From: Gallionellaceae bacterium
Lineage (GTDB): Bacteria; Pseudomonadota; Gammaproteobacteria; Burkholderiales; Thiobacillaceae
Reading direction: 5' to 3'
Length of the DNA stretch: 64,000 bases
Assembly (NCBI GenBank): GCA_028714875.1
Contig: JAQTLN010000006.1
Location: 62,001 to 126,000, forward strand
In this document: positions 5,582 to 19,411 of the stretch, piece by piece
How positions within the stretch are numbered: the stretch's first letter is position 1
Layout of the letters: every line of letters starts with the position of its first letter
Position numbers and translations under genes: made by a program
Notes under the pieces: model-generated
The model's input: only the letters and a program-made list of their open reading frames with translations
The model's database searches: none
What the model was told of the DNA's origin: nothing

Positions 5582-6382
5582 ATGACCAATCCCGCTTCTG
5601 CTTCCAAGTATTTCGATCTGCACACGTTCGCCACCGGCCATGTCGATGACATTCGTGAAGTCCAAGTCAAGCGTGGCAGTTTCATCGCCTGCCGTTTCTC
5701 CGCCCTCCGCACGGAAGGCAACAGCAACACTCGCTTCGATCTGAAAGTTGTCGGCGCCCACGCGAAGGCTTGCGTGCTCGCTCTGAAGCCTCTGGCCGCC
5801 ACTGGCAAGGCCGTCATCGCTCAGTTGAAGATCGGCGACATCTACCCCGAGGTTTTCTCCTACAAGTCCGGCAAACGCCAGGGTGAAATGGGTGTCAACA
5901 TCAAGGGGCGTGTGCTCAAGGTGTATATGGCGAAAGTGGATGGTCAGGACGTTGACCTGCCGCCCATGCCCTATACCGATACCCCCAGCAAACAGCCTCC
6001 CGTTGGGCTGGTCACGTCTGGTGTCGGCTATCTCAACCGAGTGAGTAAAGTCCACGTTGGTGAAGGTGAGCACGTCTGGATGGCCTCCATCGCCGCGCTT
6101 CGCGGCGACCCTGTGGATGGTGGCAAGGTTGAAATCACGCGCTTCGTCCTGGCCGTCGGCCCGGATGCGCTGGTCCCGGCTCAAGCCCTCCAGGATGCCT
6201 TGCTGGCCAAGAAGAAGGTGCTGGTTGGCTTCGACGCGAGCGGTATTCGCGCCGAACTGTTCCAGTACGAAAGAGGTGAAAAGAAAGGTCAGACTGACGC
6301 AGTGCTCAAGGGTGCGCTCTCGCGCATCTCTTGGGCGAAGGTGGACGGGGAGACTTTCCCGCTTACCGAAATAGCTGCCTGA
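5582..6382 (+). CDS. STY4534-type ICE protein, two tandem DUF3577 domains
   Basis: The 266-aa protein reads as two copies of the same domain. The first (about residues 8-120) has YFDLHTFATGHVDDIREVQV, and later ADIGDIY-like and RVLKVYMAKVDGQ segments. The second (about 145-262) has GVGYLNRVSKVHVGEG, VLVGFDASGIRAELF, and RISWAKVDGE. This matches my memory of STY4534/DUF3577 proteins of SPI-7-like ICEs, implicated in element replication and perhaps single-strand DNA binding. Usual members have a single domain, so this looks like a fusion or duplication. Translation depends on an SD trapped in leader A. Confidence 0.8.
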   Translation: MTNPASASKYFDLHTFATGHVDDIREVQVKRGSFIACRFSALRTEGNSNTRFDLKVVGAHAKACVLALKPLAATGKAVIAQLKIGDIYPEVFSYKSGKRQGEMGVNIKGRVLKVYMAKVDGQDVDLPPMPYTDTPSKQPPVGLVTSGVGYLNRVSKVHVGEGEHVWMASIAALRGDPVDGGKVEITRFVLAVGPDALVPAQALQDALLAKKKVLVGFDASGIRAELFQYERGEKKGQTDAVLKGALSRISWAKVDGETFPLTEIAA

Positions 6383-6458: not shown

Positions 6459-6641
6459 ATGAATATCAACAAGGAGCAGTCCAAGCATCTGGCTGAAACA
6501 GCACGGGTTGTGGCCATCGCCCAGTTTGCGGCGTTTGGCTATACTGCCGTCGTCAATCAGCAATACTCGATTGCCATACTATCCACGCTGTGGTTCGTTG
6601 CAGCGGAGTGGTTGGCGGTGATGCTTTTGGAGGATCAATGA
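6459..6641 (+). CDS. Small two-helix membrane protein, 60 aa
   Basis: It begins with an amphipathic N-terminus (NKEQSKHLAETARVV) and has two hydrophobic stretches (IAQFAAFGYTAVV and IAILSTLWFVAAEWLAVML). GAGG lies upstream of the start. It is related to the 68-aa protein at 9511 (both have NK-Q---LA near the N-terminus) and is coupled by ATGA overlap to a 40-aa membrane protein, just as the other copy overlaps its own partner. Function unknown. Confidence 0.65.
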   Translation: MNINKEQSKHLAETARVVAIAQFAAFGYTAVVNQQYSIAILSTLWFVAAEWLAVMLLEDQ

Positions 6642-6760
6642 TGTTCGAATATTTTCTACTGGGGTTAGTTGGCGTAATTATTGCGCTGGGCTGGGGCGTC
6701 TACTTCCTCTCCCGCAAGGGAAGGGATGACCACAAGAACACCCACGTTCACCAGATTTGA
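6638..6760 (+). CDS. Single-pass membrane micro-protein with His-containing tail, 40 aa
   Basis: It starts inside the stop region of the preceding gene (ATGA at 6638-6641). It has one transmembrane segment (YFLLGLVGVIIALGWGVYFL) followed by a charged tail, SRKGRDDHKNTHVHQI. It closely parallels the 40-aa protein at 9707-9829, whose tail is KHRDGDHHHKD. The paired organisation, repeated twice in the window, argues that this very short gene is real. Confidence 0.6.
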   Translation: MMFEYFLLGLVGVIIALGWGVYFLSRKGRDDHKNTHVHQI

Positions 6761-6770
6761 ACCACACCAG

Positions 6771-6790
6771 CCCCTCTCAAGAGGGGTTTT
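6771..6790 (+). terminator. Intrinsic terminator
   Basis: CCCCTC-TCAA-GAGGGG followed directly by TTTT, 10 nt after the micro-protein stop. Confidence 0.7.
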
Positions 6791-6871
6791 CCCTGAGCAC
6801 CCTGAACCGGGGTGTTCCGGGAAAACGGTTTGTTCCCTGTTTTGTGCGTTTCAGGCTCAAAAACGCAAAAA

Positions 6872-6965
6872 CTGCCACGCAAGTGGCGCCCTTTGAGACC
6901 GGTCAGCCCCTGACACCGGTACGACGCTTCCGGTGGTATTGGAAGTGTTCGGGGTTAATGTAATC
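6872..6965 (+). ncRNA. Long structured leader RNA, divergent copy E
   Basis: It keeps the order of the long motif with changed bases: GCCAC-GCAA-GTGGC, TTTGAGACCGGTCAG with a later ACCGGTAC, a stem CGCTTCC/GGAAGTG, then GGGGTTAATGTAATC in place of GGGATTAACGTAATGC. The inner GGAG-TTCG-CTCC hairpin is missing. The gene-free stretch runs from 6761 to 7241. Past this motif it holds further small hairpins (CACTCC/GGAGTG at 7112-7130) but no convincing gene. Confidence 0.55.
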
Positions 6966-7175
6966 AATCCGCCGTGAGTGGTTTGTCGCCAGGAGCTCCC
7001 TGGAAGCGCCAATTCCACACAAGTTGTTGCATCTACAGCAACCTGAGGCATGACCACACGGTCACGTCCTGACTGCTTCGGTCTGAACACCCGAGGCTGA
7101 GTTTCAATCAACCGTCCACTCCCTAACCGGAGTGGCGGCCAACCTCTTCCCTTCCCTTGTTTTTTCGACCCGCTC

Positions 7176-7241
7176 GCCCGGGGCTAAATGCTCCCCTTGG
7201 GGAGACATGCGCCTCCGGCTGGCTTTTTTCTGGAGAACAGC
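7176..7241 (+). promoter_or_regulatory. Short two-hairpin leader of the DUF3275 gene
   Basis: CTCCCC-TT-GGGGAG at 7191-7204, then GCCTCC and a T-rich tract before GGAG. GCTG at 7218-7221 can pair with CAGC just before the start, placing the SD in a loop. This is the weakest member of the leader family. Confidence 0.45.
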
Positions 7242-7829
7242 ATGTCTGTCAGGCTTGATGGCACCCTGGTGGTGCGCCATATCAATGGCAAGAACGGTGG
7301 TTTTGCCGTCGGTGATCTGTCTACCCCCATCGGCAAGTTCAAGGTCAAGGACGCGATCCTGGACCAGTATGAAGAGGGGGAGTATCGGGGAGCTTTTCTG
7401 GTGACCCAGATTTTCCCGTCCACGTATGTCTGGGGCGGAAGGGTTGTCACAGAAATCCGTGTCAATGTTTCCGAAATCTTCCTGGAAGAGTCTGAAGAGA
7501 AAGCGGTTCCCGCCGCCCCGTTCGAGCCCGACCCGGTGAACGAGGAGCGGGTTGCGCATCCTGTTGATCAACCTTCGAGGGAGGTCGCGGATAAACAACC
7601 TGCGGAAGTGGGCTCTGGAGGCTTTGAAGGTGCGGCACCGGTCGCCGACACCAGTGATCCTGATGCGGCGCTGTTCGGCCCTGAGCTTTACGCACTTGTC
7701 GCCGCCGGCGCGCCGGTAAAACTCGATCCGACCATTGACCGTGGACAGTTCCGCAACCAGCGTGATCGGCTCAAGGTGCTCGGCTATGGCTTCCAGTCCG
7801 CAACTCAGACCTGGGAGCTGAAAACCTGA
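7242..7829 (+). CDS. DUF3275 family ICE protein, 195 aa
   Basis: The first 85 residues match my memory of DUF3275, common on PFGI-1/SPI-7-type ICEs: LDGTLVVRHINGKNGGFAVG, IGKFKVKD, LDQYEEGEYRGAFLV, FPSTYVWGGR. A low-complexity linker follows, then a C-terminal segment, DRGQFRNQRDRLKVLGY-like, which could be a small helical domain. Role unknown. The start at 7242 follows TGGAG with an 8-nt spacer; a frame open from 7188 begins inside the leader. Confidence 0.75.
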   Translation: MSVRLDGTLVVRHINGKNGGFAVGDLSTPIGKFKVKDAILDQYEEGEYRGAFLVTQIFPSTYVWGGRVVTEIRVNVSEIFLEESEEKAVPAAPFEPDPVNEERVAHPVDQPSREVADKQPAEVGSGGFEGAAPVADTSDPDAALFGPELYALVAAGAPVKLDPTIDRGQFRNQRDRLKVLGYGFQSATQTWELKT

Positions 7830-8140
7830 GTCGGCTACATCCAGGTGCGCTTCGCGCACCTGGTGTGAAACATCAACCAGGCCTGCGATAGCGGGCTTTC
7901 CACCGGGCCAACCCGGCGGAAAGCCTGTTGCGACGGGCTTTTCTAATCAGGGTGACGACGACCCAGACTGTCGTGGCCTTTGCGTCGTAGACGCACCCCC
8001 TTTTTCGGCGTTCTGGTTCCCGATTCCGACGCCCGGGCAATGCCCGCAGGGAACGATGTAAACAACATGCCACCTGGCGCCATGAATCAACCTGAACCCG
8101 ACGGGTTCCTCGATGGGATAGCACCTGTCTCATGGAGGAA
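7830..8140. other. Gene-free stretch with two hairpins
   Basis: CCAGGTGCGC-TTC-GCGCACCTGG lies at 7841-7863, just past the DUF3275 stop, and probably acts as a transcription or RNA-end structure. A second near-perfect stem with GGCTTTCC/GGAAAGCC arms lies at 7899-7932. A short open frame at 7980-8189 runs into leader B and is not credible as a gene. Confidence 0.5.
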
Positions 8141-8360
8141 CACGTTGGCTGAGTACAGCCCGCCACCCTGCGATATGGGTGCCTTTTGAGGCCGGTCAGT
8201 CCCTGAGGAGTTCGCTCCGTACCGGCACACCTCGACCCGAATGGGTTGGGGCCGGGATCATCGTAATGCTGTTTATTTACCCTATCGGGGAGCGCCGCCT
8301 TCCCGCCAGGGAACCGTCCTGTTGGACGGGGTGGTCTCTCTTTTCCTTCTGGAGACCATC
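8141..8360 (+). ncRNA. Long structured leader RNA, copy B
   Basis: Shares with copies A and C the strings GTTGGCT, GTACAGCCCGCC, TTTTGAGGCCGGTCAG and GGAGTTCGCTCC, and has GGGATCATCGTAATGCTG. The hairpins hold compensatory changes: CCTCGACCC-GAAT-GGGTTGGGG replaces GTCTC-GCAA-GAGAC, CCGTCC-TGTT-GGACGG replaces CTGTCA-TTTC-TGACAG, and the SD stem is TGGTCTC/GGAGACCA. It leads into a 53-aa gene. Confidence 0.78.
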
Positions 8361-8522
8361 ATGGAAGTCCTTCAATACCAAGTCATTAACGCCGGCAACG
8401 GCTTCTGTATCGCCGCCTACGACGAATCCGTTGGCGACTTTCGTCGTCTGTCCAAAGAGGCCTATCCGAGGTTCAAGGATGCTCGTGATGCGCTTTTCAC
8501 GGGCAAATGGACCATCGCTTGA
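8361..8522 (+). CDS. Small hypothetical protein, 53 aa
   Basis: The start is fixed by the SD stem of leader B (CTGGAGACCATC then ATG). The product has a beta-rich N-terminus (VLQYQVINAGNGFCIAAYDE) and a helical, basic C-terminus (LSKEAYPRFKDARDALFTGKW). No membrane segment. It is short, but codon use and the leader support it. Function unknown. Confidence 0.6.
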   Translation: MEVLQYQVINAGNGFCIAAYDESVGDFRRLSKEAYPRFKDARDALFTGKWTIA

Positions 8523-8532
8523 ATCGTTCTTT

Positions 8533-8602
8533 CCCAACCGGGACGCATCACTCCCGGCTGGGGGTGGTGTCGTTCCATTTTCATATTTCGAGGAGCAACA
8601 CC
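8533..8602 (+). promoter_or_regulatory. Short two-hairpin, SD-sequestering leader
   Basis: Hairpin 1: CCCAACCGGGA (8533-8543) with TCCCGGCTGGG (8552-8562). Hairpin 2: GGTGTCGTTCC (8566-8576) with GGAGCAACACC (8592-8602), enclosing a T-rich loop and burying the SD. Confidence 0.7.
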
Positions 8603-9064
8603 ATGAGCCACACCAAGATCATCGGCAGTACGAAGTCGCTGTACTACCAGTTCTACGAGCTTGCTCGCATGTACTGGCGTGACATGCAGTACAGCGGCCT
8701 GGACGCCATCGAGAAATCGAAGCGCCGGGCCTATGAGGTTGCCGCTCAGCGCGTGGGCTTCCCGCTCTCGCTGTGTGATCGCCTTTATGACCGCTGCTTC
8801 CAGGAATGCTGGAGCATGGACCTTGGCTGCTATGTCACCCCCCTCGACCCCGAGGCCCGCATGTTCGATCTCGCGGACCGCATCGAGAACGCGTGGGCGG
8901 GGCGGCTTGACTGCTGCCCTGTCGATTTGACGCAGTACCGTGTCAATCGGGAAAACCGCGACAAGCTGGCCATGCGGCAACGCCGGCAAGCTGATCGCGA
9001 GCAGTCAGTGCGGGGTCGGCCATTACTTCTGGTTGATCCACTTATTGAGGAGGCTGTCGCATGA
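8603..9064 (+). CDS. Hypothetical protein, 153 aa
   Basis: Soluble, mostly helical protein beginning SHTKIIGSTKSLYYQFYELA. It has several cysteines (CDRLYDRCFQEC, CCPVD) that do not form an obvious zinc motif. The start is fixed by the SD in the upstream leader. Its stop overlaps the next start (ATGA at 9061-9064). I do not recognise the family. Confidence 0.62.
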   Translation: MSHTKIIGSTKSLYYQFYELARMYWRDMQYSGLDAIEKSKRRAYEVAAQRVGFPLSLCDRLYDRCFQECWSMDLGCYVTPLDPEARMFDLADRIENAWAGRLDCCPVDLTQYRVNRENRDKLAMRQRRQADREQSVRGRPLLLVDPLIEEAVA

Positions 9065-9378
9065 TTACCGTGAGGTCGTATCAGGGTTTCGGCTATGGCT
9101 GTAAAGAGCAGCCATTTGACCGTATCGAGGACGCCATCAAGGCGTTTAACAGTATGGATCCATGCCATGAGATGCCCCGTCTTTGTCGTGATGGCAAGAC
9201 GGTTGCTGAACATGATGTGGAGTCAGGCATGGCTGTGATGTTCTGGGCTGACGATGTCAGGTTGGTCTACAACAGCGTGACATTCGATGCTTTGCTGGAT
9301 GAAAGCATTTCCTTGGATAGCCGACAGGCTATTTGGCAACCAGGAGAAGCACCATGTATGACCGTGGACAAGATGTAG
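9061..9378 (+). CDS. Hypothetical protein, 105 aa
   Basis: Coupled to the preceding gene by ATGA overlap, with GGAGG upstream. Contains FDRIEDAIKAFNSM and an acidic, beta-rich middle; no membrane helix. Its last 25 nt overlap the start of a 36-aa membrane peptide. No family recognised. Confidence 0.6.
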   Translation: MITVRSYQGFGYGCKEQPFDRIEDAIKAFNSMDPCHEMPRLCRDGKTVAEHDVESGMAVMFWADDVRLVYNSVTFDALLDESISLDSRQAIWQPGEAPCMTVDKM

Positions 9379-9464
9379 ATATAAACCGTTACGCGGCCAT
9401 ATCAGGCGAGATCGCCGGCTTGATATTGGCGGTCGTGATGTTCTTGCTGACGATCCCGATGTAA
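9354..9464 (+). CDS. Membrane micro-protein, 36 aa
   Basis: ATG at 9354 has AGGAG seven bases upstream. The product has a charged N-terminus (YDRGQDVDINRYAA) and one transmembrane helix (IAGLILAVVMFLLTIPM). It overlaps the preceding gene by 25 nt. It is similar in size and style to the two 40-aa membrane proteins nearby. Confidence 0.5.
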   Translation: MYDRGQDVDINRYAAISGEIAGLILAVVMFLLTIPM

Positions 9465-9510
9465 CCCCTACCCCCGCGCGCCTCTGGTGCAGGGGAGTAA
9501 AGGAGAAAAC

Positions 9511-9717
9511 ATGAAGTTCAACAAGGACCAGCGTGAGGGGTTGGCCAAGGTGGCTGACAACCTGGCCACGGCCTGCATGATTACGGCAATTGTCGGTGGC
9601 TTGGTCGATCAGAAGATCGGCTGGGTAACCGCGATGCTGCTGTTAGCAATGTTCGTGGTGCTACTATCCGTAGCGTATATCCTTCGTTTCGAAAAAGGAG
9701 GCAGCAATGGCAATTGA
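9511..9717 (+). CDS. Small two-helix membrane protein, 68 aa
   Basis: The ATG at 9511 follows AAAGGAG and is preferred over 9487. N-terminus KFNKDQREGLAKVADNLATA, then two hydrophobic segments (MITAIVGGLVDQ and VTAMLLLAMFVVLLSVAYIL). It is a paralogue, by eye, of the 60-aa protein at 6459, and again overlaps a 40-aa single-pass protein downstream. Confidence 0.65.
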   Translation: MKFNKDQREGLAKVADNLATACMITAIVGGLVDQKIGWVTAMLLLAMFVVLLSVAYILRFEKGGSNGN

Positions 9718-9829
9718 ATCTTTGGTCGCTCTTGGCCTTGCCACGGCGTTCTTGCTTGGTGTGGCTCTCTACTCGTTGAAACACCGGGACGGGGATCATC
9801 ACCACAAGGACAGTGCGCTCTCGAAGTAA
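9707..9829 (+). CDS. Single-pass membrane micro-protein with His-rich tail, 40 aa
   Basis: Starts 11 nt before the end of the preceding gene with a near-perfect SD (AAAGGAGG). One helix (LVALGLATAFLLGVALYSL), then KHRDGDHHHKDSALSK. Similar in design to the micro-protein at 6638. The His-rich tail could bind metal; that is inference. Confidence 0.6.
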   Translation: MAIESLVALGLATAFLLGVALYSLKHRDGDHHHKDSALSK

Positions 9830-9850
9830 CGCGAGACACTTCTCAAATAA

Positions 9851-9882
9851 AGCCCCGCGCAGCACTGCTGCCGGGGCTTTTC
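9851..9882 (+). terminator. Intrinsic terminator
   Basis: AGCCCCG and CGGGGCT pair around a 14-nt loop and are followed by TTTT. It separates the small membrane-protein genes from the methyltransferase leader. Confidence 0.75.
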
Positions 9883-9891
9883 AATCACCCA

Positions 9892-9945
9892 CCCGGACGG
9901 GTCTCCCGTCTGGGGGCCTCCGTCCAGTTTCTGCATGGAGGCAAC
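9892..9945 (+). promoter_or_regulatory. Short two-hairpin, SD-sequestering leader
   Basis: Hairpin 1: CCCGGACGGG-TCT-CCCGTCTGGG. Hairpin 2: GCCTCC (9916-9921) with GGAGGC (9937-9942), which contains the SD of the methyltransferase gene. Confidence 0.68.
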
Positions 9946-11043
9946 ATGGCACTGATCTTCTCGCGCCTCGCGCGCAACTTCATCAAAAACGGCTATTACC
10001 CAACTGACGACATGACGCTGGAGCGGATCCTTTCCGCCCTGGACATCGCCGCCGGCAGGGTCCGCATTTTCGATCCCTGTTGTGGCGAGGGTGTGGCACT
10101 TGCCGAGGCCAAGCATCATCTGGCCGAATGCGGTGCTGCCGTGACCGCCCTGGGCGTGGAGTTCGACCCGGAACGTGCCTGGCACGCGAAGGGGCTGCTC
10201 GACACCGTGGCGCACGCGGACGTGAATGACGTGTTCGTGACCGCGCGCAGCATCGGCCTGTTGTTCCTGAATCCTCCTTACGGCGCCGTCGTTTCCGACA
10301 AAGCCGGCACCGGGGATGATGCCAAGCGCGAACGCCTGGAAAAAATCTTCTACCGCAAGACAGTGCCGTGGTTGCAGTTCGGTGGCGTCATGGTGTTGAT
10401 CATTCCTCACTACGTGCTCGATGCCGAGTTCGCCGCCATGATTGCCCGCCACTTCGAGCGGGTGACGATTCACATGGCGCCCGAGCAGCAGTTCAAGCAA
10501 TGCGTGATCATGGGCGTCAAGCGCCGGGCGGACAGCCCTGATTTGGCGATCGCGAAAGCGCTCGAAGCAGCCGGCCAGGGAGAACTCCCCCCAGTGCTGC
10601 CCGAGGGCTGGTGCGGTGAACCTTATCTTGTGCCGGCAATGACGGCGGAAGACGCGTTTGCCTTCACCTCGATGCGCATTGACGGCGCCCAGTTGGAAGC
10701 CGAAGTACGCCGACTTGGGGCTCACACCTTGTGGCCACAGTTCGGCGCCATGTACGGGCGAATCGCATTGCCGGCCAGGCGGCCGCTACGTGACCTGTCC
10801 AAATGGCATCTGGCGCTGGCGCTGGCCGCCGGGCAGATTTCCGGCGTAGTACGTTCCGGTTCCAGAACCCTGCTCATCAAGGGCGACACCTTCAAGGAGA
10901 AGTCGCGCGCTGTGGACCAGGAATTCAAGGCAGACGGCAGCATCGTCGAAACCATCCGGATGACCGACACCTTCGTGCCGGTCATACGGGGCCTTGATTT
11001 CACGCCTGGGTCTGGCTTCGGCCAGGTGGTGACGATTCGGTAA
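9946..11043 (+). CDS. DUF6094-type N6-adenine DNA methyltransferase-like protein, 365 aa
   Basis: A Rossmann-fold methyltransferase: the S-adenosylmethionine motif FDPCCGEG lies near residues 42-49 and the catalytic NPPYG near 109-113, as in N6-adenine or N4-cytosine enzymes. The C-terminal half (APEQQFKQCVIMGVKRR and beyond) resembles the DUF6094 family common in ICE and plasmid accessory regions. It may modify element DNA against restriction or regulate genes; no restriction partner is adjacent. The SD is held in the upstream leader. Family assignment is good, specificity unknown. Confidence 0.78.
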   Translation: MALIFSRLARNFIKNGYYPTDDMTLERILSALDIAAGRVRIFDPCCGEGVALAEAKHHLAECGAAVTALGVEFDPERAWHAKGLLDTVAHADVNDVFVTARSIGLLFLNPPYGAVVSDKAGTGDDAKRERLEKIFYRKTVPWLQFGGVMVLIIPHYVLDAEFAAMIARHFERVTIHMAPEQQFKQCVIMGVKRRADSPDLAIAKALEAAGQGELPPVLPEGWCGEPYLVPAMTAEDAFAFTSMRIDGAQLEAEVRRLGAHTLWPQFGAMYGRIALPARRPLRDLSKWHLALALAAGQISGVVRSGSRTLLIKGDTFKEKSRAVDQEFKADGSIVETIRMTDTFVPVIRGLDFTPGSGFGQVVTIR

Positions 11044-11061
11044 TTCATCTGTTTTTTACAA

Positions 11062-11125
11062 CCCGCGAGGGGCTTCACGCCCCTCGCGGGGATCGTGGCG
11101 CTCCCGTTTTTACATGGAGCGCATC
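11062..11125 (+). promoter_or_regulatory. Short two-hairpin, SD-sequestering leader
   Basis: Hairpin 1 is a perfect 12-bp stem, CCCGCGAGGGGC (11062-11073) with GCCCCTCGCGGG (11079-11090). Hairpin 2 is GCGCTCC (11098-11104) with GGAGCGC (11116-11122) around CGTTTTTACAT. The SD is fully paired. Confidence 0.75.
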
Positions 11126-11548
11126 ATGAAAAAAATGTGGAGTTTCAAAACCGCCCACTTCACGGTGGAGTGGCTAATTGAACGGGATGTTCTGAGTACG
11201 GACTACATGGACTCCGCCCTGGCTGATGAATGTCGTGCCAAGGTGCGATCCGGCGAGTGGAAATGCTTTACTTCCACCATCCGGGTTGTTCACCGCGCCA
11301 CGAAGAGGGTGTTGTCCGAGTCGTACCTGGGCAACTCGATCTATGCCGAACCCAGGGAATTCCGGGACCACTTCGGAATGAACGGGAAAGGCTACGGCTC
11401 CTACTTCTCGGACATGGTCCGCGAGGCTATCGCCGATGCCAGGAAGGCCTTCCCGGCTTTCCAGAAAGAGGCGAATGCCGAAATCAAGCGGCAGATGCGG
11501 GCGCTGAACTGCGCCATCAAGGCGCCGCGCCAGTTGCAACCGGCCTGA
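11126..11548 (+). CDS. Hypothetical protein, 140 aa
   Basis: The ATG at 11114 lies on the SD, so 11126 is taken. The protein starts KKMWSFKTAHFTVEWLIERD and contains MDSALADECRAKVRSGEW, which looks like a mixed alpha/beta domain. The C-terminus is helical and basic. Similar proteins occur, as I recall, in ICE accessory blocks, but I cannot name a family. Confidence 0.62.
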   Translation: MKKMWSFKTAHFTVEWLIERDVLSTDYMDSALADECRAKVRSGEWKCFTSTIRVVHRATKRVLSESYLGNSIYAEPREFRDHFGMNGKGYGSYFSDMVREAIADARKAFPAFQKEANAEIKRQMRALNCAIKAPRQLQPA

Positions 11549-11563
11549 TCTTTTCAACATCAA

Positions 11564-11622
11564 CCCGCGAGGGGCTTCACGCCCCTCTGGGGTGGCCTCT
11601 CGCTCTTTTCTGGAGCGAAAAC
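11564..11622 (+). promoter_or_regulatory. Short two-hairpin, SD-sequestering leader
   Basis: Hairpin 1: GAGGGGC-TTCAC-GCCCCTC with outer CCC/GGG. Hairpin 2: TCGCTC (11600-11605) with GAGCGA (11613-11618), holding the SD. Its 5' half is nearly identical to the leader at 11062, but hairpin 2 has different, still complementary arms. Confidence 0.72.
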
Positions 11623-12315
11623 ATGCGAATCGAACTTGGCATGCGTGTGCGTGTAAAGCGTGAACAGAACCGCATCTGTGGCCCGCTATACCCAGGCCGT
11701 GATGGCGTGGTCGTGGCGGACAACTTTTGTGGTTCCGACATGGACGATGGCTACTGGTATGTCTTGTTGCGTGCGACAAGACGGGCAAAAGAGCGCATCG
11801 AGTTGTTTCCGGGGACACACCTCGAAGCCATTGACCAGGCTGGTCATCCGTATTCCGCGCAGTTTCTGGAAATGGCTTATCGCCAGCATTACCGGGTCAA
11901 GGAATACGACCAGGTGACGCTGGTGGCTCTCCTCGATGAGCTGGTCGCGATTGAGAAGGAAGACGGCTTTGCCGTTATCCCGACTATCCGACGCGCTGTG
12001 GATCTGGAATTGGCCCGCAGAGGTAGCGAGCCGGCGCCGGTTTCGCCAGGCACCGAGCATCCCGCCGTTTCCGTCGCGATGGACGTGCTGCGCGGCTACG
12101 GCCGCGCGGATGCTGTGGCGCTGGTCACCCTGGCCACCTATGACGACTGGCAGAAGATCGCCAGGCAAGAGCTGGAGCGGCGCGCTACGCGCATCGTCCA
12201 AGTCTTGGATGAAGCAACTCTGGAAGTGATCGCCGCCGGCGGGCTGGATTTCACGGTGCTCTGCCGCGAGGTGGCCACCGAGTTGTCGCAGGCAGTGGCG
12301 CCGCCGACGGCGTAA
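11623..12315 (+). CDS. Hypothetical protein, 230 aa
   Basis: The start is placed by the leader SD; the frame is open from 11230 but that part overlaps the previous gene. The N-terminal 60 residues (LGMRVRVKREQNRICGPLYPGRDG) look like a small beta-barrel, possibly SH3-like. The rest is helical with repeats of acidic and leucine-rich segments. No catalytic motif seen. Confidence 0.62.
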   Translation: MRIELGMRVRVKREQNRICGPLYPGRDGVVVADNFCGSDMDDGYWYVLLRATRRAKERIELFPGTHLEAIDQAGHPYSAQFLEMAYRQHYRVKEYDQVTLVALLDELVAIEKEDGFAVIPTIRRAVDLELARRGSEPAPVSPGTEHPAVSVAMDVLRGYGRADAVALVTLATYDDWQKIARQELERRATRIVQVLDEATLEVIAAGGLDFTVLCREVATELSQAVAPPTA

Positions 12316-12333
12316 CCGCAGCTCTTACTTCAA

Positions 12334-12394
12334 ACCCTTTCGGGGAGTTCTCCTCCCCGGAGGCTCCCCGTGTTTTTCTGAAATGGAGGACACG
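12334..12394 (+). promoter_or_regulatory. Short two-hairpin, SD-sequestering leader of radC
   Basis: Hairpin 1: CGGGGAG (12341-12347) with CTCCCCG (12353-12359). Hairpin 2: CGTGT (12369-12373) with ACACG (12390-12394), or alternatively CTCC with GGAG; either masks the SD. Confidence 0.6.
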
Positions 12395-13018
12395 ATGCTG
12401 TCTCAAACCGTAGTAGAACTTTCCAACCGTGATCTGTTGGCCCTGCTGGTGGGCGAGAACACCGCCGACTGCATGCTGATGGAAACGGGAGGAAGCTTGT
12501 TTGGCTTGTTTCCCGACGAGCCTTGTACTGTCGCAACGGTTCGCGAACCCAGTGCGGAGTATGGCTGGGCAAGGCCTCGTGAGATCCTGTCGGCTGCCAG
12601 GGAACTGGCTCGTCGATGCCTTGGGGAATCACTCGCTCAGGGCGAAAGCATGAACTCGCCTCGCCAGGTGAAGGAATATCTATCACTCTCGCTTGGAAAG
12701 CTGCCCTATGAGGCATTCATGGTCTTGTGGCTAGACGCACAGAACCGGCTGATCGAGGCCGAAGTGCTTTTCAAGGGAACATTGACGCAAACCAGCGTTT
12801 ATCCCCGCGAAGTCGTGAAGCAGGCTCTGGCTCACAATGCCGCTGGCGTGATCCTGTCGCACAACCATCCGTCCGGCACCGCCGAGGCATCACAGGCGGA
12901 TCGTTGGCTTACTGACCAGCTCAAGGCCGCGCTTGGCCTGGTGGACGTAAAGCTGGTCGACCACATCATCGTGGCCGGCAATGAGCATTTGTCGTTTTGC
13001 GATCGCGGCTGGTTGTAA
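12395..13018 (+). CDS. radC: RadC-like JAB/MPN domain protein, 207 aa
   Basis: It carries the JAMM signature SHNHPSG at about residues 155-161 with the downstream SQAD aspartate near 169, typical of RadC (DUF2466) proteins found on ICEs, phages and plasmids. These resemble zinc metalloenzymes; the old DNA-repair role is doubtful. The N-terminal part (about 1-80) differs from chromosomal RadC, which has helix-hairpin-helix motifs, and appears to be an element-specific domain. ATG 12395 is chosen because 12383 overlaps the SD. A 12-bp hairpin follows at 13041-13082. Confidence 0.85.
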   Translation: MLSQTVVELSNRDLLALLVGENTADCMLMETGGSLFGLFPDEPCTVATVREPSAEYGWARPREILSAARELARRCLGESLAQGESMNSPRQVKEYLSLSLGKLPYEAFMVLWLDAQNRLIEAEVLFKGTLTQTSVYPREVVKQALAHNAAGVILSHNHPSGTAEASQADRWLTDQLKAALGLVDVKLVDHIIVAGNEHLSFCDRGWL

Positions 13019-13024
13019 CAACCC

Positions 13025-13082
13025 GGCCCCTCTCACGAGGGGCCTCACCTGGGCGACCGATTCGGTTGTCCAGGTGAGGCCT
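13025..13082 (+). repeat. Two strong hairpins after radC
   Basis: GGCCCCTC-TCAC-GAGGGGCC at 13025-13043 resembles hairpin 1 of the short leaders. It is followed by GGCCTCACCTGG with CCAGGTGAGGCC, a perfect 12-bp stem (13041-13082) with an inner ACCG-ATT-CGGT. The two share bases, so they could be alternative folds. A -10-like TAGACT at 13090 leads into leader C. Confidence 0.55.
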
Positions 13083-13102
13083 ACCTGGGTAGACTGAAAG
13101 CG

Positions 13103-13321
13103 TTTCACGTTGGCTTCGTACAGCCCGCCGCCCGGCGCCATGGGCGCCTTTTGAGGCCGGTCAGTCCCTGAGGAGTTCGCTCCGTACCGGCACGCTTCGC
13201 AAGAGGTCGGGATTATCGTAATGCTATTTTTCTTCACCCATCTGGGGATCCACCTTCCCCACATGGGAACTGTCATTTCTGACAGGGTGGTCTCCCCTTC
13301 TTTTCATTTCTGGAGAGCACC
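13103..13321 (+). ncRNA. Long structured leader RNA, copy C
   Basis: Same length (219 nt) as copy A and about 95% identical by eye. Changes are concentrated in loops or are paired, for example GGCGCC-ATGG-GCGCC where A has GCCC/GGGT. It ends in the same SD stem and drives a 119-aa protein unrelated to the DUF3577 protein downstream of copy A, so the leader is not tied to one gene family. Confidence 0.8.
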
Positions 13322-13681
13322 ATGAACACATCATTTACTGTTTCAGACCCCTTCTCGGACTGCCTTTACGTGAAAGCAACGCTTGCCGCAGTTGTGGTGG
13401 TAGCGGATCAGATCGGCGCACAGTTCATCGTTGAAGTAGATGATGGCGACGCCGACAAACCGGTTCAGCACTTCCATAAATACTTTGGTGAGTGGTTACC
13501 GATTCCGCGACTCGCGTGGGGAAAAGGCGAGCCTTTCATTCGCGGTTTCAAATATGGCGAAGGATGGCGGAAGCTGGGCCAGACTCGGCCTTGTGAGGCG
13601 GATTACCTCGGTAACCCTTATGAAAAAGGCAATCCAGCCAATCGTGAATGGCGGCAAGGCTTTGATGCCGCTTTTCAGTAA
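13322..13681 (+). CDS. Hypothetical protein, 119 aa
   Basis: Soluble, acidic N-terminal half (TLAAVVVVADQIGAQFIVEV) and a C-terminal half rich in Gly, Trp and Tyr (GEWLPIPRLAWGKGEPFIRG). The start is set by leader C. No family recognised. Confidence 0.6.
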   Translation: MNTSFTVSDPFSDCLYVKATLAAVVVVADQIGAQFIVEVDDGDADKPVQHFHKYFGEWLPIPRLAWGKGEPFIRGFKYGEGWRKLGQTRPCEADYLGNPYEKGNPANREWRQGFDAAFQ

Positions 13682-13695
13682 ATAAACCTTCTTTA

Positions 13696-13748
13696 CCCCA
13701 CCGGGGCCTTCCCCGGTCGGGGAGGCTCCATTTTTTCAGGAGCCGCAC
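13696..13748 (+). promoter_or_regulatory. Short two-hairpin, SD-sequestering leader
   Basis: Hairpin 1: CCGGGG-CCTT-CCCCGG with outer CCCC/GGGG. Hairpin 2: GGCTCC (13724-13729) with GGAGCC (13739-13744) around a T-rich loop. Confidence 0.7.
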
Positions 13749-14354
13749 ATGTTCAAAATCAAGGAACTGTTCGACATCTTCGCGGATGCCTGCGTCCGCG
13801 ATGAAGCCGGCAATCTCGTATTTCTCTCGCTCTACGGCCGTGACACCGTCATCCAGCAGCTCTACGCGGCCTTCTACCTGAAGGCGACGGAAGGCGGGTT
13901 CGATCAGATCCACCTGGTCGATGATGCTGGACGGCAACACCCGGTTTTTCTGGGGCAAGCTGACCGCCTTACGAAAATCTCCGGACGTTTCCCAAGAGCA
14001 AACCTGTTCGGCAACCTGGTTCACACATGGATCTACGATCCCGTGGTGGCCAGGCCGGACATGGTGAACCGCGCCGCCTGGTTGTTGGCGGAAGACGATG
14101 GCAGCGATGCCGTGAAAACCGCCTTTGATGCCCGCGTCTGGGAGGCCTACCGGCAGTTGTCGCCCGTGCCCTTGCTGGATCATTGGCAAGCGCCGGTCAT
14201 GGAGGCCACCGGGCACGCCTGCATCACCTCGATGGCACAGACCCCCTACCCTCCCCTGGGCCGGGTATCCGCTTGCAGGGTAACGATCGGCGAGCATTTT
14301 GCGCCGATGGTTTCCCGGCTGGTTCGCGATGGCACGTTGACCCTGGAGGAATGA
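13749..14354 (+). CDS. Hypothetical protein, 201 aa
   Basis: Begins FKIKELFDIFADACVRDEAG. A central segment (WIYDPVVARPDMVNRAAWLLAEDDG) and the C-terminal MVSRLVRDGTLTLEE look well folded. No membrane helices or catalytic motifs are clear. It is followed two bases later by a 57-aa gene, so they are probably co-translated. Unknown family. Confidence 0.62.
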   Translation: MFKIKELFDIFADACVRDEAGNLVFLSLYGRDTVIQQLYAAFYLKATEGGFDQIHLVDDAGRQHPVFLGQADRLTKISGRFPRANLFGNLVHTWIYDPVVARPDMVNRAAWLLAEDDGSDAVKTAFDARVWEAYRQLSPVPLLDHWQAPVMEATGHACITSMAQTPYPPLGRVSACRVTIGEHFAPMVSRLVRDGTLTLEE

Positions 14355-14355
14355 C

Positions 14356-14529
14356 ATGACACGCGACCAGGCTTTTGCCAAAGCGGGGAAGCTTTCACGG
14401 CATCGCGGAGAGCCGATGTATGTGGTCTTTGACCCGTCTTCCGAGAATGGTCCTTGGCAGGTGTCCACGGAGTCCGGCCTCGATACCTTTTACCTGGGCT
14501 GTTCCGATGTCACGGAAGTGACGGACTGA
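14356..14529 (+). CDS. Small hypothetical protein, 57 aa
   Basis: Not long enough for most gene finders, but it has GGAGG 7-9 bases upstream and sits tightly behind the 201-aa gene. The product (TRDQAFAKAGKLSRHRGE, then MYVVFDPSSENGPWQVST) looks like a compact beta-rich domain. Unknown function. Confidence 0.55.
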   Translation: MTRDQAFAKAGKLSRHRGEPMYVVFDPSSENGPWQVSTESGLDTFYLGCSDVTEVTD

Positions 14530-14548
14530 CGGCCACATGTTTTTATAA

Positions 14549-14610
14549 CCCTCGCGGGGAATTCCTCCCCGTCTGGGGAGGGTTCGCCGCTTTTTCTTGT
14601 GGAGCGGATC
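14549..14610 (+). promoter_or_regulatory. Short two-hairpin, SD-sequestering leader
   Basis: Hairpin 1: CGGGGA with TCCCCG inside CCCTC with GAGGG. Hairpin 2: CCGCT (14587-14591) with AGCGG (14603-14607) around TTTTTCTTGTGG. It leads to a 7-codon reading frame, not directly to the 65-aa gene. Confidence 0.68.
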
Positions 14611-14634
14611 ATGTTCAAAAGGGGATTCAAATGA
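14611..14634 (+). CDS. Seven-codon minigene at the leader start codon
   Basis: The ATG placed by the leader opens a frame encoding MFKRGFK and stops at TGA 14632-14634, which overlaps the ATG of the next gene (14631). Its AAAAGGGG codons also serve as SD for that gene. It may be a coupling peptide, or a remnant of an earlier start. Confidence 0.4.
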   Translation: MFKRGFK

Positions 14635-14828
14635 CAGGTGTAAAAGTAGAGCATGGGCACACGTTCGAGCAACTGATGGGGCGTCTTCTTGCGGGAGAGC
14701 AAGGCGATGATGTGCCCATCGTCATGGAAGCATTTGGTTGCAATTATGAAGCCGCTTGTGACGCCATATTCACGGGTGATCATCAAGAAGCAATTGCGAT
14801 GCTGAACGCCGCGATAGCGGCAGCCTGA
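14631..14828 (+). CDS. Small hypothetical protein, 65 aa
   Basis: Starts at ATG 14631 with AAGGGG upstream inside the minigene. The helical product (TFEQLMGRLLAGEQGDD, CNYEAACDAIFTGD, AIAMLNAAIAAA) has alternating acidic and alanine-rich helices. A longer frame from 14454 would run through the leader and is rejected. Unknown function. Confidence 0.55.
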   Translation: MTGVKVEHGHTFEQLMGRLLAGEQGDDVPIVMEAFGCNYEAACDAIFTGDHQEAIAMLNAAIAAA

Positions 14829-14843
14829 GCACCTTCTTTCAAA

Positions 14844-14906
14844 CCCATGCGGGGAAGCACTCCCCGCATGGGGCGTGGTTTCTCCGCGTTCTTCCTGGAG
14901 CAAACC
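14844..14906 (+). promoter_or_regulatory. Short two-hairpin, SD-sequestering leader
   Basis: Hairpin 1 is a perfect 12-bp stem, CCCATGCGGGGA (14844-14855) with TCCCCGCATGGG (14861-14872). Hairpin 2: GGTTTCTCC (14877-14885) with GGAG-c-AAACC (14897-14906), one bulged base. Confidence 0.73.
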
Positions 14907-15206
14907 ATGCTGTCGATACTCGAACCGGTAGTACACGGGCTTACACCCGGATCCAATGCCTTGAGGGTGTCAGTGGAAATCAACAAGGCACTGATTGAGC
15001 GCGGGCACACCGATGAATCTATCGGGCAGATGTCCGGCCGCGAGATCTTTTCTGAATACTGTACCTGGCATGGCCTGATCAACTGGAGCGACACCCTCTG
15101 GGATGTCGTTCTGGTGTTGAGGGCCATGGATGTCATTCAGGACATCGACGCTCGCGTAAATCACGCCTTTGCTGACCTGACAGCAAAGCAAGCCAACGCA
15201 GGCTAA
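14907..15206 (+). CDS. Hypothetical protein, 99 aa
   Basis: The start is fixed by the leader. Helical, soluble protein (LRVSVEINKALIERGHTDES; IFSEYCTWHGLINWSDTLW). No family recognised. Lies directly before the helicase gene. Confidence 0.6.
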   Translation: MLSILEPVVHGLTPGSNALRVSVEINKALIERGHTDESIGQMSGREIFSEYCTWHGLINWSDTLWDVVLVLRAMDVIQDIDARVNHAFADLTAKQANAG

Positions 15207-15226
15207 GCAAACTTCTGCTCTACCTA

Positions 15227-15293
15227 CCCTTGCGGGGAAATCATCCCGCAAGGGGCATGGTTTCCCCGTTTTTTTTCTTCTGGAGAAACCATC
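15227..15293 (+). promoter_or_regulatory. Short two-hairpin, SD-sequestering leader of the helicase gene
   Basis: Hairpin 1: CCCTTGCGGG (15227-15236) with CCCGCAAGGG (15245-15254), perfect. Hairpin 2: ATGGTTTC (15257-15264) with GAAACCAT (15285-15292) around a run of eight T. Confidence 0.73.
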
Positions 15294-17912
15294 ATGAGTG
15301 CAATCATAGAAAACCTGGCCGCCACCGATCTGCACGGCCAACTTAGCAACCGGTGCGTCGACTACCCGCTCTACAGCCAGGAACAGGTGGAAGACAAGCT
15401 GGTCGTGGCAAAGCTCTTCAACATCGCCGGCGGCGGCACCTGGTGGATCACCGAATACGATCCCAAGGACCACCTCGCAAGAGGCTATGTCACCGGCATG
15501 GACTACGACGAATGGGGCTACAGCTCCATCGACGAGATGGCCGAGCTGCGCTGGAACGGCATCCCGCGCATCGAGGTCGACCTGTACTTCAATCCAGCCC
15601 GGTTTTCTGAAATCGACTTCGAGACGGGGCAAGCCAGGAAACCAGAAACATTGGATGACCAGGTGGCCGATGCCGATGCCGGCGGGGAAGTCCTTCCGCT
15701 GACCGCCTTCATCGAGGAGTTCGGCGCGAGCCTGTTGGATGCGGTCCGTGAGCAGAATCCGCCGGTGTACTGTGGTGATGTCAACCCGACCCGCGAAGCG
15801 GTGATGGATGGCCTGTTGCGCAATCCGTTCGGCGCCCAACGCGAAGTCGTCCAGGCCGTCACCCGTCTGTTGATTGACGAGGGCGAACCGGCTTCGGTCA
15901 TCAATGCCGAAATGGGTACCGGCAAGACCATGATGGCCATCGCTGCGGCGGCCGTGATGCACCAGGAAGGTTTCGGCCGCTGCCTGGTCATCGCGCCGCC
16001 GCACCTGGTCTACAAGTGGCGGCGGGAAATCCGCGAAACGGTGCCTGGTGCCAGGGTGTGGATCCTCAACGGACCCGATACCCTCAAGAAGCTGCTGCAA
16101 TTGCGTGCGATGCTGGAAAAGCCGACGGTCCCTGAGTTCTTCATCATGGGCCGTGTTCGGATGCGCATGGGCTTCAACTGGCGGCCCGCCTTCGCGGTGA
16201 AACGTGCATTGGTGGCTGAACCGATGGGCGGCAAGGTGGCGATGTCCTATGCCACCTGTCCGCGTTGTGGTGATTTCATCAAGGACGAGGAAGACCGGCC
16301 GCTGCCGGTCGAACTCGCGAAGCTCCGTCTGGATCGGGAGCGTACAAGCTGCAAGTCATGCGGTGAGCGTCTCTGGACCTTGGCGGCACGTGGCCAGGCG
16401 CAGAAATCGGCGCGAGACATGGTGAGCGAGGCCCTGACGCAGATCCCCACCATCGGGGGCAAGACGGCCGAAAGGCTGCTGGCCACCTTCGGCGAGGAAA
16501 TGCTCTCCGGCATGTTGGGAGACAACGTCTACGAGTTCATCAACCTGATGAACGACGAGGGCGACCTGTTTTTCAGCGACCGCCAGGCCAAGCGCATGGA
16601 ACGCGCCATGGCCAACATGGAGTTTTCGTTCGGCCAGGGCGGCTATCAGCCGACCGAGTTCATCAAGCGGTATCTCCCGCAGGGCTATTTCAGCCTGGCA
16701 GTGTTTGATGAGGCGCATGAGTACAAAAACGAAGGTTCTGCCCAGGGCCAAGCCATGGGGGTGCTGGCGCGCAAGTGCCGGAAGACCATCCTGCTGACCG
16801 GAACCTTGATGGGTGGTTATGCCGACGATCTGTTCCACCTGCTCCACCGGCTGGATCCGGGGCAGATGATCGACGACGGCTACGCCTATAACGCCCGCCG
16901 CAGTCTGGGCGGCGCCGGCATGGCCTTCATGCGTGAGCATGGCGTACTCATCGATGTGTTCAAGGACACGAACGATGGCTCGCACCGCACCGCGAAGGGC
17001 AAGAGGCAGTCGCAACGCACCAAGAAAGGCCCTGGTTTCGGCCCCAAAGGGATCATGCGCTACGTGGTACCCATCACGGCCTTCCTGAAACTGCGCGATA
17101 TTGGCGCCAACGTGTTGCCTCCCTACCGGGAGCACTTCGTCGGCGTATCCATGCGTGAAGACCAGTATCTGGCCTATCGCAAACTGGAAGACACACTCAG
17201 GACGATCCTGTCCAAGGCGCTGGTCTGTGGCGACACGAGCTTGCTCGGCGTGGTGTTGAACGTGCTGCTGGCCTGGCCGGATTGCGCGTTTCGCGACGAA
17301 CTGGTGCGCCACCCGCGCACGCGGGCGCAACTGGCCTACGTGCCGGCGGTGCTGCGACCTGGTGAAGCCGGTCCCAAGGAAGAAAAACTTCTTGAGATCT
17401 GCCGAGCCGAAAAGGCGCGTGGCCGCCGCGTCCTGGTCTACACGGTCTACACGGGCACGCGGGACACCACCGCGCGCCTTAAAGCCCAGTTGGATCAGGC
17501 GGGCTTCAAGGTGGCCGTACTGCGGGCGAGCGTGGATGCGAGCAAGCGGGAAGACTGGTTGTTCGAGCAGGTCGATCGTGGGATGGACATCATCATCACC
17601 AACCCCGAGCTGGTGAAAACCGGCCTCGACATGCTGGAGTTCCCAACCATCGTGTTCATGCAGTCTGGGTACAACGTCTACACCCTGCAACAGGCTGCCC
17701 GCCGTAGCTGGCGGATTGGCCAGAAGGTGGAGGTGGACGTGTACTTCCTGGGTTACGAGGGCTCCGCCCAAATGACCTGTCTGTCGCTCATGGCCAAAAA
17801 AATCGCGGTGGCGCAATCCACCAGCGGCGACATGCCCGAGAGTGGACTCGACGTTCTCAACCAGGGCGGTGAGTCCATCGAAGTGGCCCTGGCCAGGCAA
17901 CTGGTTGGCTAA
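15294..17912 (+). CDS. SNF2-type superfamily 2 helicase with zinc-ribbon insert, 872 aa
   Basis: An ATP-driven DNA translocase/helicase. Walker A GTGKT is at about 208-212, the DEAH box at 472-475, and motif VI (RRSWRIGQ) near 801-808; the RIGQ ending is typical of SNF2 proteins. Between the first motifs is an insert with CPRCG (from C322) and CKSCG (from C353), a likely zinc ribbon. The N-terminal 200 residues are of unknown fold. Mobile-element copies probably help replication or remodel protein-DNA complexes during transfer. The SD is sequestered in the upstream leader and a strong terminator follows. Confidence 0.85.
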   Translation: MSAIIENLAATDLHGQLSNRCVDYPLYSQEQVEDKLVVAKLFNIAGGGTWWITEYDPKDHLARGYVTGMDYDEWGYSSIDEMAELRWNGIPRIEVDLYFNPARFSEIDFETGQARKPETLDDQVADADAGGEVLPLTAFIEEFGASLLDAVREQNPPVYCGDVNPTREAVMDGLLRNPFGAQREVVQAVTRLLIDEGEPASVINAEMGTGKTMMAIAAAAVMHQEGFGRCLVIAPPHLVYKWRREIRETVPGARVWILNGPDTLKKLLQLRAMLEKPTVPEFFIMGRVRMRMGFNWRPAFAVKRALVAEPMGGKVAMSYATCPRCGDFIKDEEDRPLPVELAKLRLDRERTSCKSCGERLWTLAARGQAQKSARDMVSEALTQIPTIGGKTAERLLATFGEEMLSGMLGDNVYEFINLMNDEGDLFFSDRQAKRMERAMANMEFSFGQGGYQPTEFIKRYLPQGYFSLAVFDEAHEYKNEGSAQGQAMGVLARKCRKTILLTGTLMGGYADDLFHLLHRLDPGQMIDDGYAYNARRSLGGAGMAFMREHGVLIDVFKDTNDGSHRTAKGKRQSQRTKKGPGFGPKGIMRYVVPITAFLKLRDIGANVLPPYREHFVGVSMREDQYLAYRKLEDTLRTILSKALVCGDTSLLGVVLNVLLAWPDCAFRDELVRHPRTRAQLAYVPAVLRPGEAGPKEEKLLEICRAEKARGRRVLVYTVYTGTRDTTARLKAQLDQAGFKVAVLRASVDASKREDWLFEQVDRGMDIIITNPELVKTGLDMLEFPTIVFMQSGYNVYTLQQAARRSWRIGQKVEVDVYFLGYEGSAQMTCLSLMAKKIAVAQSTSGDMPESGLDVLNQGGESIEVALARQLVG

Positions 17913-17967
17913 TTCCTGTAGTCGATGCGTGCCCGGTTATCCGGGTGCGCTGGCTGTTGCGATCTTG

Positions 17968-17991
17968 AACCTCCTTCGGGAGGTTTTTTTT
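17968..17991 (+). terminator. Intrinsic terminator after the helicase gene
   Basis: AACCTCC-TTCG-GGAGGTT followed by a run of T (eight in all). It ends the plus-strand accessory block. Confidence 0.88.
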
Positions 17992-18104
17992 CGTCCGCGA
18001 GATTTGATCGACTCATGCTTGTTAAGATTCGGCGAGAATTGATAAAAACAGCAGGGATAAGCCGGCAACGACTGGGCGCTACGCCGTGGCTTGCATACCA
18101 AACA

Positions 18105-19401: not shown

Positions 19402-19411
19402 CACATCCCAC

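Follow-up and report, generated by a model that had tools for sequence, protein, structure and literature searches.

Analysis of a 64,000-nucleotide (nt) stretch of DNA from Gallionellaceae bacterium (GCA_028714875.1, contig JAQTLN010000006.1, positions 62,001-126,000 of the forward strand), hereafter the window, to whose positions all coordinates refer, reveals a family of short messenger RNA leaders on an integrative conjugative element (ICE) or similar element, and allows a model to be proposed by which these leaders may control the genes behind them. Each leader comprises an upstream hairpin, formed by segments 1 and 2 (helix 1:2), and a second hairpin, formed by segments 3 and 4 (helix 3:4), which contains the Shine-Dalgarno (SD) sequence and of which segment 3 is the anti-SD arm. 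The model, which is considered probable though far from certain and draws on sequence statistics and predicted folding energies, holds that each leader is a compact four-segment co-transcriptional translational RNA switch, in which a third helix between segments 1 and 3 (1:3) would act as anti-sequestor.

Detection and covariation of the leaders

Between 5495 and 15296 on the plus strand, the window carries a series of leaders of 60-90 nt, each terminating in a start codon (Table 1). The upstream hairpin typically reads CCC-N3/4-GGG, loop, CCC-N3/4-GGG, and is followed by the second hairpin, the right arm of which contains GGAG a few bases before the start codon. The genes behind these leaders are unrelated, as they encode DUF3275, DUF6094, RadC, DUF3577 and SNF2/DEAD helicase proteins and several products without a Pfam family, and the common architecture before unrelated genes, with the SD in the right arm, is seen both in the window and beyond. 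An earlier note on this DNA had described this architecture and named nine leaders (8533, 9892, 11062, 11564, 12334, 13696, 14549, 14844 and 15227); all nine are present with the arms it quoted, and each is matched at E ≤ 7e-4 by a covariance model, R1, which was built from an alignment of 39 leaders, six of them window leaders and all six among these nine, and which knows 1:2 and 3:4 only. The statements that the same SD hairpin also ends long leaders (R1 matches at 5495, 8300 and 13256) and that a leader at 7176 is weak were upheld as well. The covarying arm pairs listed there were likewise borne out, with the qualification that in the leader of the gene starting at 12395 the 5-bp CGTGT/ACACG part lies beside GGAG and not over it; RNAfold extends this stem over GGAG, largely by G-U pairs, and the SD stem of the leader of the gene starting at 8603 contains one mismatch.

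The existence of the leaders is confirmed, and their distribution reaches far beyond the window. A structure scanner independent of R1, which requires two hairpins, an SD and an open reading frame (ORF), placed 179 leaders on the gene strand of 86 records and 11 on the opposite strand. Related loci were collected by means of the helicase encoded behind the last leader of the series (80 kept of 171), and loci L001-L006 were left out of the R1 search, L006 sharing 99% identity with the window over the helicase. R1 gave 404 matches at E ≤ 0.002 per search in 79 related loci and the window, including all 39 training leaders, with 399 on the gene strand and five on the opposite one. In the host genome (4.08 Mb), all ten R1 matches at E ≤ 0.001 fall within the window's element, 150 of 1,346 first-look candidates having been scored.

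Covariation was assessed on an alignment of 150 leaders (147 distinct), which was fitted to the model. Changes on both sides of a pair occurred in 14 of 20 column pairs, compared with 11.0 in shuffles; doubly changed cells numbered 340 against 165.5 ± 9.3, and 78.1% of cells were paired against 68.8%. The covariation score of 0.266 exceeded that of the shuffles (0.133) and fell to 0.06-0.12 when partners were slid by 1-3 columns, and by a G-test eight of the top nine column pairs belong to 1:2 or 3:4. Both hairpins thus covary, which supports the proposal of selection on RNA shape in the earlier note. The bases that are conserved are the near-invariant CCC/GGG blocks, GGAG and AUG. In the approximately 12 nt that precede the upstream hairpin, G is strongly under-represented and T abundant, and this stretch mostly ends in CAA before CCC (204 leaders).

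A third helix that would exclude both hairpins

The burial of the SD in a hairpin, as first described, stood, but that account was incomplete in that it overlooked a third conserved helix. Reading the leaders of many elements in parallel pointed to complementarity between segments 1 and 3, in which the 3' half of the segment 1 arm and the hairpin loop could pair with the anti-SD arm plus a few following bases. This complementarity was tested by exchanging segment 3 among the leaders of an element, a procedure distinct from R-scape that controls for base composition and element of origin. With their own partners the 1:3 duplexes reached -16.28 kcal/mol, against -11.06 ± 0.13 kcal/mol for swapped partners (z = -40.5; 191 leaders, 50 loci), and in the same set the control combinations 2:3, 1:4 and 2:4 gave z values of +2.9, -1.4 and -3.0, while z was -26 for 1:2 and -28 for 3:4, the positive controls. 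The result held when the training leaders were removed (z = -35.2; 160 leaders, 47 loci), with segments defined by the scanner (z = -28.8; 173 leaders, 46 loci), on held-out elements (z = -16.1; 49 leaders) and within the single IncC plasmid (z = -8.0; 13 leaders). For the helicase leader at 15225-15296, none among 206 other segments is a better 1:3 partner.

When the register was fixed by the GGG core and the loop, 1:3 reached into the variable block with 1.38 contiguous pairs of 3, compared with 0.97 (z = 6.6; 166 leaders in loci with at least two, out of 183 usable of 206); an earlier version of this test had given z = 8.5, but there the register was chosen over the tested bases and the value was biased. 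Column-wise covariation gave no clean 1:3 signal, because the register of this helix varies. As judged from the sequence statistics as a whole, the three helices covary and 1:3 is specific to each leader; as it excludes both 1:2 and 3:4, a leader would have two alternative states.

The sets behind these tests were as follows. For R1, the five minus-strand matches were dropped and the remaining 399 reduced to 206 leaders, 191 of which lie in loci with at least two. For the scanner, L001-L006 were excluded and 25 minus-strand detections set aside, which left 274 plus-strand leaders, 188 of them below 80% identity and 173 of these in loci with at least two. The held-out set comprised 61 matches, 59 of which end in a start codon and 49 of which are unique, and it still includes at least one antisense match (L105:7653-7731), which was removed for the U-tract and energy analyses.

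Within segment 2, a mini-hairpin of the form CCC-N-GGG could form in the 1:3 state. A fourth pair in this mini-hairpin is weakly suggested by a column-based test (z = 4.0; 68/69 non-redundant rows); a regex-based test gave z = -0.1 (189 leaders), the base being misplaced when GGGG is present. For a segment-1 mini-hairpin, the column test (columns 2 and 13) gave no support. The near invariance of the CCC/GGG blocks would follow from the combined demands of the SD, 1:3, 1:2 and the mini-hairpin.

Predicted energies along transcription

Energies and SD accessibility were predicted with ViennaRNA for 191 of the 206 leaders, the other 15 having no GGAG before the start or a 1:3 helix reaching past it. 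In transcripts ending at segment 3, 1:3 is favoured in 75% of the 191 leaders (median -3.0 kcal/mol), in 88% of 16 IncC leaders (-4.2) and in 82% of 28 other held-out leaders (-3.3), whereas in the complete leader 1:2 plus 3:4 is favoured by a median of +6.3 kcal/mol (+6.9 in IncC, +7.3 in the other held-out leaders). On average, the SD was unpaired with a probability of 0.09 when 1:2 was forced and 0.41 when 1:3 was forced, 1:3 being the more open state in 173 of 191 leaders; forcing 1:3 likewise raised it from 0.16 to 0.42 in IncC (16 of 16 more open) and from 0.13 to 0.42 in the other held-out leaders (24 of 28). The predicted order of energies along transcription is that expected of a co-transcriptional translational switch. 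The distance from the end of 1:3 to the start codon has a median of 22 nt (5-95% range, 16-31; 21 in IncC), such that, given the size of the 30S footprint, 1:3 ends about clear of the ribosome in most leaders, and the SD lies 6-7 nt from the start in 148 of 191.

A model of switching

According to the proposed model, the closed state would consist of segment 1 paired with segment 2 and segment 3 paired with segment 4, and in the open state segment 1 would pair with segment 3, segment 2 could form its own CCC-N-GGG hairpin, and the SD together with a spacer free of G would remain outside the helix. In the order of transcription, 1:2 would form first, and the emerging segment 3 could then invade it through the hairpin loop to form 1:3, leaving the SD free as it is transcribed. 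If no ribosome loads, the finished leader would relax to the more stable 1:2 plus 3:4 and close. The balance for genes of replication, recombination and anti-restriction type could be set by timing or by a shared factor that acts on hairpin 1:2. The assignment of 1:3 as the ON state, the order of the folding events and this manner of setting the balance are all inferred. With respect to class, covariation, permutation and energies together place the leaders, by sequence only, among riboswitch-like translational platforms with a mutually exclusive sequestor and anti-sequestor.

Several observations weigh against this model. In the full leader, 1:3 is predicted to be less stable than the closed form in 88% of 206, and the open state would therefore need kinetics or a factor. 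Even in the 1:3 state the SD is partly paired locally (probability unpaired of approximately 0.4; paired fraction of 0.61 in the minimum free energy (MFE) structure), and in the free ensemble 35% of 55 helicase leaders (the unique ones among 77 orthologous leaders looked at in 77 related loci) have a probability of at least 0.2 that the SD is unpaired. The 1:3 assigned by the model is weak in two of 11 window leaders (8300 and 13256), and the reversed-sequence controls lie slightly off zero (z = -3.1 and -2.7). Further, the predicted SD accessibility in the window, which is lower than that of other plus-strand genes (p = 0.008; 14 vs 15 genes), is not significantly below that of the minus-strand, mostly pilus or transfer, ORFs, the starts of which were taken from the ORF list (p = 0.07; 14 vs 20); on these predictions, SD burial alone does not clearly set the leader genes apart.

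Alternative explanations

An alternate scenario, regarded as improbable, is that the leaders are transcription attenuators, in which 1:3 with the nested segment-2 hairpin would be an intrinsic terminator and 1:2 the antiterminator. The ICE leaders do have a T-rich stretch of approximately 7-8 nt from the end of 1:3, with T fractions of 0.68, 0.71, 0.65, 0.58, 0.67, 0.59 and 0.53, then falling (66 long-loop leaders), and at least five T in eight occur in 98 of 191 ICE leaders and in ten of 11 in the window; a terminator scan of 13 kb returned 25 sites against 12.1 ± 3.7 in shuffles, two of the best of which (11 pairs, 13703 and 8545) are parts of 1:3 forms, and the 1:3 form of the 13694-13751 leader scores as terminator-like (stem 13703-13729, then ATTTTTTC). 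In addition, 1:3 is favoured in 76% once transcription reaches segment 3, as an attenuator would also have it. However, the same 1:3 helix is followed by at least five T in eight in only two of 15 IncC leaders (mean T 0.31), L099 (0.25, seven leaders) and L103 (0.41, eight leaders) are likewise low, and what is kept after 1:3 is the absence of G (0.03-0.04). A GC-rich hairpin with a U-tract is thus not found family-wide, and as most IncC leaders with the same 1:3 lack the U-tract, termination is disfavoured as the general role; it was rejected for IncC and kept as a rival for the ICE leaders, and it may be an addition in some elements. A terminator would, moreover, leave the conserved, adjacent, SD-sequestering 3:4 helix unexplained.

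It is also conceivable, if unlikely, that the hairpins are static structures whose only effect is to reduce or insulate translation, or to stabilise the ends of the mRNA. The prediction of 1:2 plus 3:4 as ground state of most full leaders is consistent with this, as is the fact that no ligand or protein is known for the leaders, and a stop precedes the upstream hairpin by 10-34 nt in 147 of 349 cases. However, such structures do not need a leader-specific 1:3 complementarity that extends past its SD-mimicking core. Coupling to an upstream ribosome was rejected as a general rule: an upstream ORF ends in range in 349 of 399 cases, at a median of 39 nt with a long tail. With regard to a leader-peptide attenuator, which would have a conserved short ORF over segments 1 and 2, an ATG lies within 104 of 206 leaders and a GTG within 129, counted irrespective of frame and position. 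Repression by a CsrA/Rsm-type protein bound to GGA in segment 1 and the SD seems very remote: the SD and many copies of segment 1 do contain GGA, and the leader region of pCAR1 includes a csrA gene (L112 11608-11781), but segment 1 often has GGGGC, GGGTA or GGGCA in place of GGA, and control by a CsrA of host or element was rejected because none was found in the host genome by a search that detected CsrA in three of 14 control genomes, E. coli included. An RNA thermometer, in which temperature would melt the SD hairpin, is hardly credible in spite of the paired SD, as the predicted folds are stable (mean MFE -32 kcal/mol), predicted SD accessibility hardly differs between 25 and 37 °C (0.13 vs 0.14; 55 helicase leaders), and 1:3 would remain unexplained.

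Distribution on mobile elements

A covariance-model search of other ICEs and plasmids, as the earlier note had recommended, showed that the family extends beyond the window's element to MOBH plasmids and to many ICE-like loci. In a sample of the class, 18 of 185 genomes (the source genome included) had R1 matches at E ≤ 1e-4, and leaders were present in seven of eight genomes with the helicase and 11 of 177 without it; in a sample of the phylum, five of 150 genomes had a match at E ≤ 1e-5. At E ≤ 0.001, matches numbered nine on the P. aeruginosa plasmid NZ_CP124633, eight on Vibrio pVP157-1, 21 on IncC pAR060302, four on R27 (IncHI1) and eight on pCAR1 (IncP-7), compared with none on F, pWW0 and R388 and one (E 5e-4) on R64. 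The five plasmids from NZ_CP124633 to pCAR1 are MOBH, by PLSDB typing for four and an annotated mobH gene for pVP157-1, whereas F, pWW0, R388 and R64 are typed MOBF or MOBP; this contrast of five of five with one weak match among four others comes from a small, author-chosen sample, three of the five having been reached through shared genes. The family is also present on a 319,548-bp Hydrogenophaga plasmid.

When 27 matches were compared with annotation, 25 proved to end precisely at the start codon of an annotated gene. These are 14 of the 16 that lie on the gene strand in the retrieved part of pAR060302 (of the other two, one is 3 nt off and one has no listed gene), seven of seven in the retrieved part of pCAR1 and four of four on R27. 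The plasmid genes behind leaders include those for an AAA ATPase, DUF3150, ssb, bet, an exonuclease, a VWA protein and a DNA methyltransferase, and RadC- and ArdC-like proteins are encoded behind leaders of other loci. Among 5,426 complete E. coli genomes, 91 contain a match to the leader-bearing DUF3150 gene of IncC.

Upstream modules and relation to known RNAs

A conserved module lies directly upstream of leaders at 5380-5495, 8155-8274, 13120-13235 and 28635-28716 on the plus strand, with a divergent copy at 6861-7000, and blastn located copies within the window as well as in L006, L010, L014, L015, L016 and L037. Its pattern, GAG-N-CCGGTCAGTCCCTGA...CCGG-A-CG...GGGATT, has many invariant columns among 14 aligned copies, and no Rfam family matched it in the window at gathering score or in 6500-24500 at E ≤ 2; from its sequence, it looks like a separate candidate sensor RNA. 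In 12 loci, radC RNA (RF01754) had four matches (L070 and L059, two Pseudomonas elements) directly upstream of leader sequence, three of them followed by an R1 match 11-42 nt on and the fourth by sequence that is leader-like by eye, and the conserved module of the window's long leaders occupies the place taken by radC RNA in the two Pseudomonas loci. As either RNA may directly precede the leaders, several RNAs located upstream may use the two-hairpin leader as their output.

The supposition of the earlier note that no described system fits agrees with what was found: at gathering score no Rfam family matched the leaders in the window or the 12 loci, radC RNA gave no match at E ≤ 2 in 6500-24500, and no description of the family was found in openly licensed literature. 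Matches below gathering score, some of which overlap leaders on the opposite strand, were judged to be chance. The main text of a study of the IncC regulon (PMC4207636) makes no use of the words hairpin, leader or untranslated, and conjugative, plasmid and radC are absent from PMC11109978. The radC RNA, which appears in a table of Weinberg et al. (2010; PMC2864571), resembles the leaders as a cis-regulatory (Rfam type) candidate of Proteobacteria, but it is approximately 149 nt long with its own conserved core and stops before the two-hairpin leader, and most leaders have no radC match.

In logic the leaders resemble several known systems. Like translational riboswitch platforms, which use a sequestor and an anti-sequestor, they would have an SD sequestor (3:4), an anti-sequestor (1:3) and a competing helix (1:2); unlike these, the leader itself has no visible conserved aptamer core and occurs in many paralogous copies per element. 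The conserved CCC/GGG, GGAG and AUG do not resemble an aptamer, and upstream modules are present for some leaders. Attenuators of the pyr type employ an anti-antiterminator, an antiterminator and a terminator, the same logic as 1:2, 1:3 and 3:4, but the leader would act on the SD and not on a terminator, and no PyrR-like protein is known for it. Delayed folding controls the MS2 maturation gene and hok mRNA, in which, as proposed here, the SD is open in the young RNA and shut after refolding; the difference is that here a whole leader family stands before different genes and the timing is predicted. In erm-type translational attenuation alternative pairing also frees the SD, but the leaders have no recognised leader peptide and the alternative helix is 1:3, not 2:3.

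Features of the window

Apart from the leader genes, the window, which is an ICE or similar element, encodes a topoisomerase, an integrase, KfrA, and type IV pilus and conjugation genes; with regard to leaders on transfer genes, its minus strand gave no R1 match at E ≤ 0.01. The 5495-5584 leader has an extra hairpin between 1:2 and 3:4 and a 1:3 duplex of -22.1 kcal/mol, and by eye the whole upstream hairpin of the 13256-13324 leader starts near 13237. The start codon at 14611 opens a 7-codon ORF, the stop of which overlaps the next ORF start at 14631 (ATGA; 14611-14634), an arrangement that suggests coupled re-initiation. A GC hairpin of ordinary appearance with TTTTC behind it, noted by eye at 9852-9881 immediately before the 9890 leader, is possibly a terminator of the preceding genes. 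An Rfam DUF3800-VI RNA (48.2 bits) lies at the start of a DUF3800 gene (23448-23501).

Table 1. Leaders and leader parts located in the window
Feature	Position	Start codon	Strand	Basis
Leader of DUF3577 gene	5495-5584	5582	+	R1 36.9 bits, E 2.4e-7; Pfam DUF3577
Weak leader of DUF3275 gene	7174-7244	7242	+	R1 E 0.049; Pfam DUF3275
SD hairpin ending long leader	8300-8363	8361	+	R1 E 1.5e-6
Leader	8531-8605	8603	+	R1 E 6.1e-10; predicted folds
Leader of DUF6094 methyltransferase-family gene	9890-9948	9946	+	R1 E 6.6e-4; Pfam
Leader	11060-11128	11126	+	R1 E 4.8e-10
Leader	11562-11625	11623	+	R1 E 5.1e-7
Leader of RadC-domain gene	12334-12397	12395	+	R1 E 4.4e-5; Pfam RadC
SD hairpin ending long leader	13256-13324	13322	+	R1 E 2.5e-6
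Leader	13694-13751	13749	+	R1 E 4.8e-9
Leader	14547-14613	14611	+	R1 E 8.4e-12
Leader	14842-14909	14907	+	R1 E 4.2e-13
Leader of SNF2/DEAD helicase gene	15225-15296	15294	+	R1 62.6 bits, E 1.2e-13
Helicase leader, segments 1 and 2 (hairpin 1:2)	15227-15254		+	Folds, R1
Helicase leader, segments 3 and 4 (SD hairpin, U-rich loop)	15257-15292		+	GGAG 15282-15285 placed by eye
Borderline leader	28717-28806	28804	+	R1 E 0.013

Implications

A broader and more tentative proposal, which is doubted more than it is believed, is that MOBH-type elements share one RNA control layer, in which the three-way platform, placed before replication, recombination and anti-restriction genes, would admit ribosomes only to mRNA that has just been made or upon a common signal, with different upstream sensor RNAs (radC RNA and the GGTCAG module) plugged in. 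Its scope would take in ICEs, IncC, R27, pCAR1 and their relatives, with up to approximately 20 copies of the platform per element. The switch reading is testable with simple reporters in E. coli. If it is true, a common class of mobile element would regulate a set of its genes through an RNA switch that is so far undescribed and present in up to approximately 20 copies, there would be a shared handle on the timing with which such elements produce recombination and anti-restriction proteins, and there would also be a suggestion of what the orphan radC RNA may act through.

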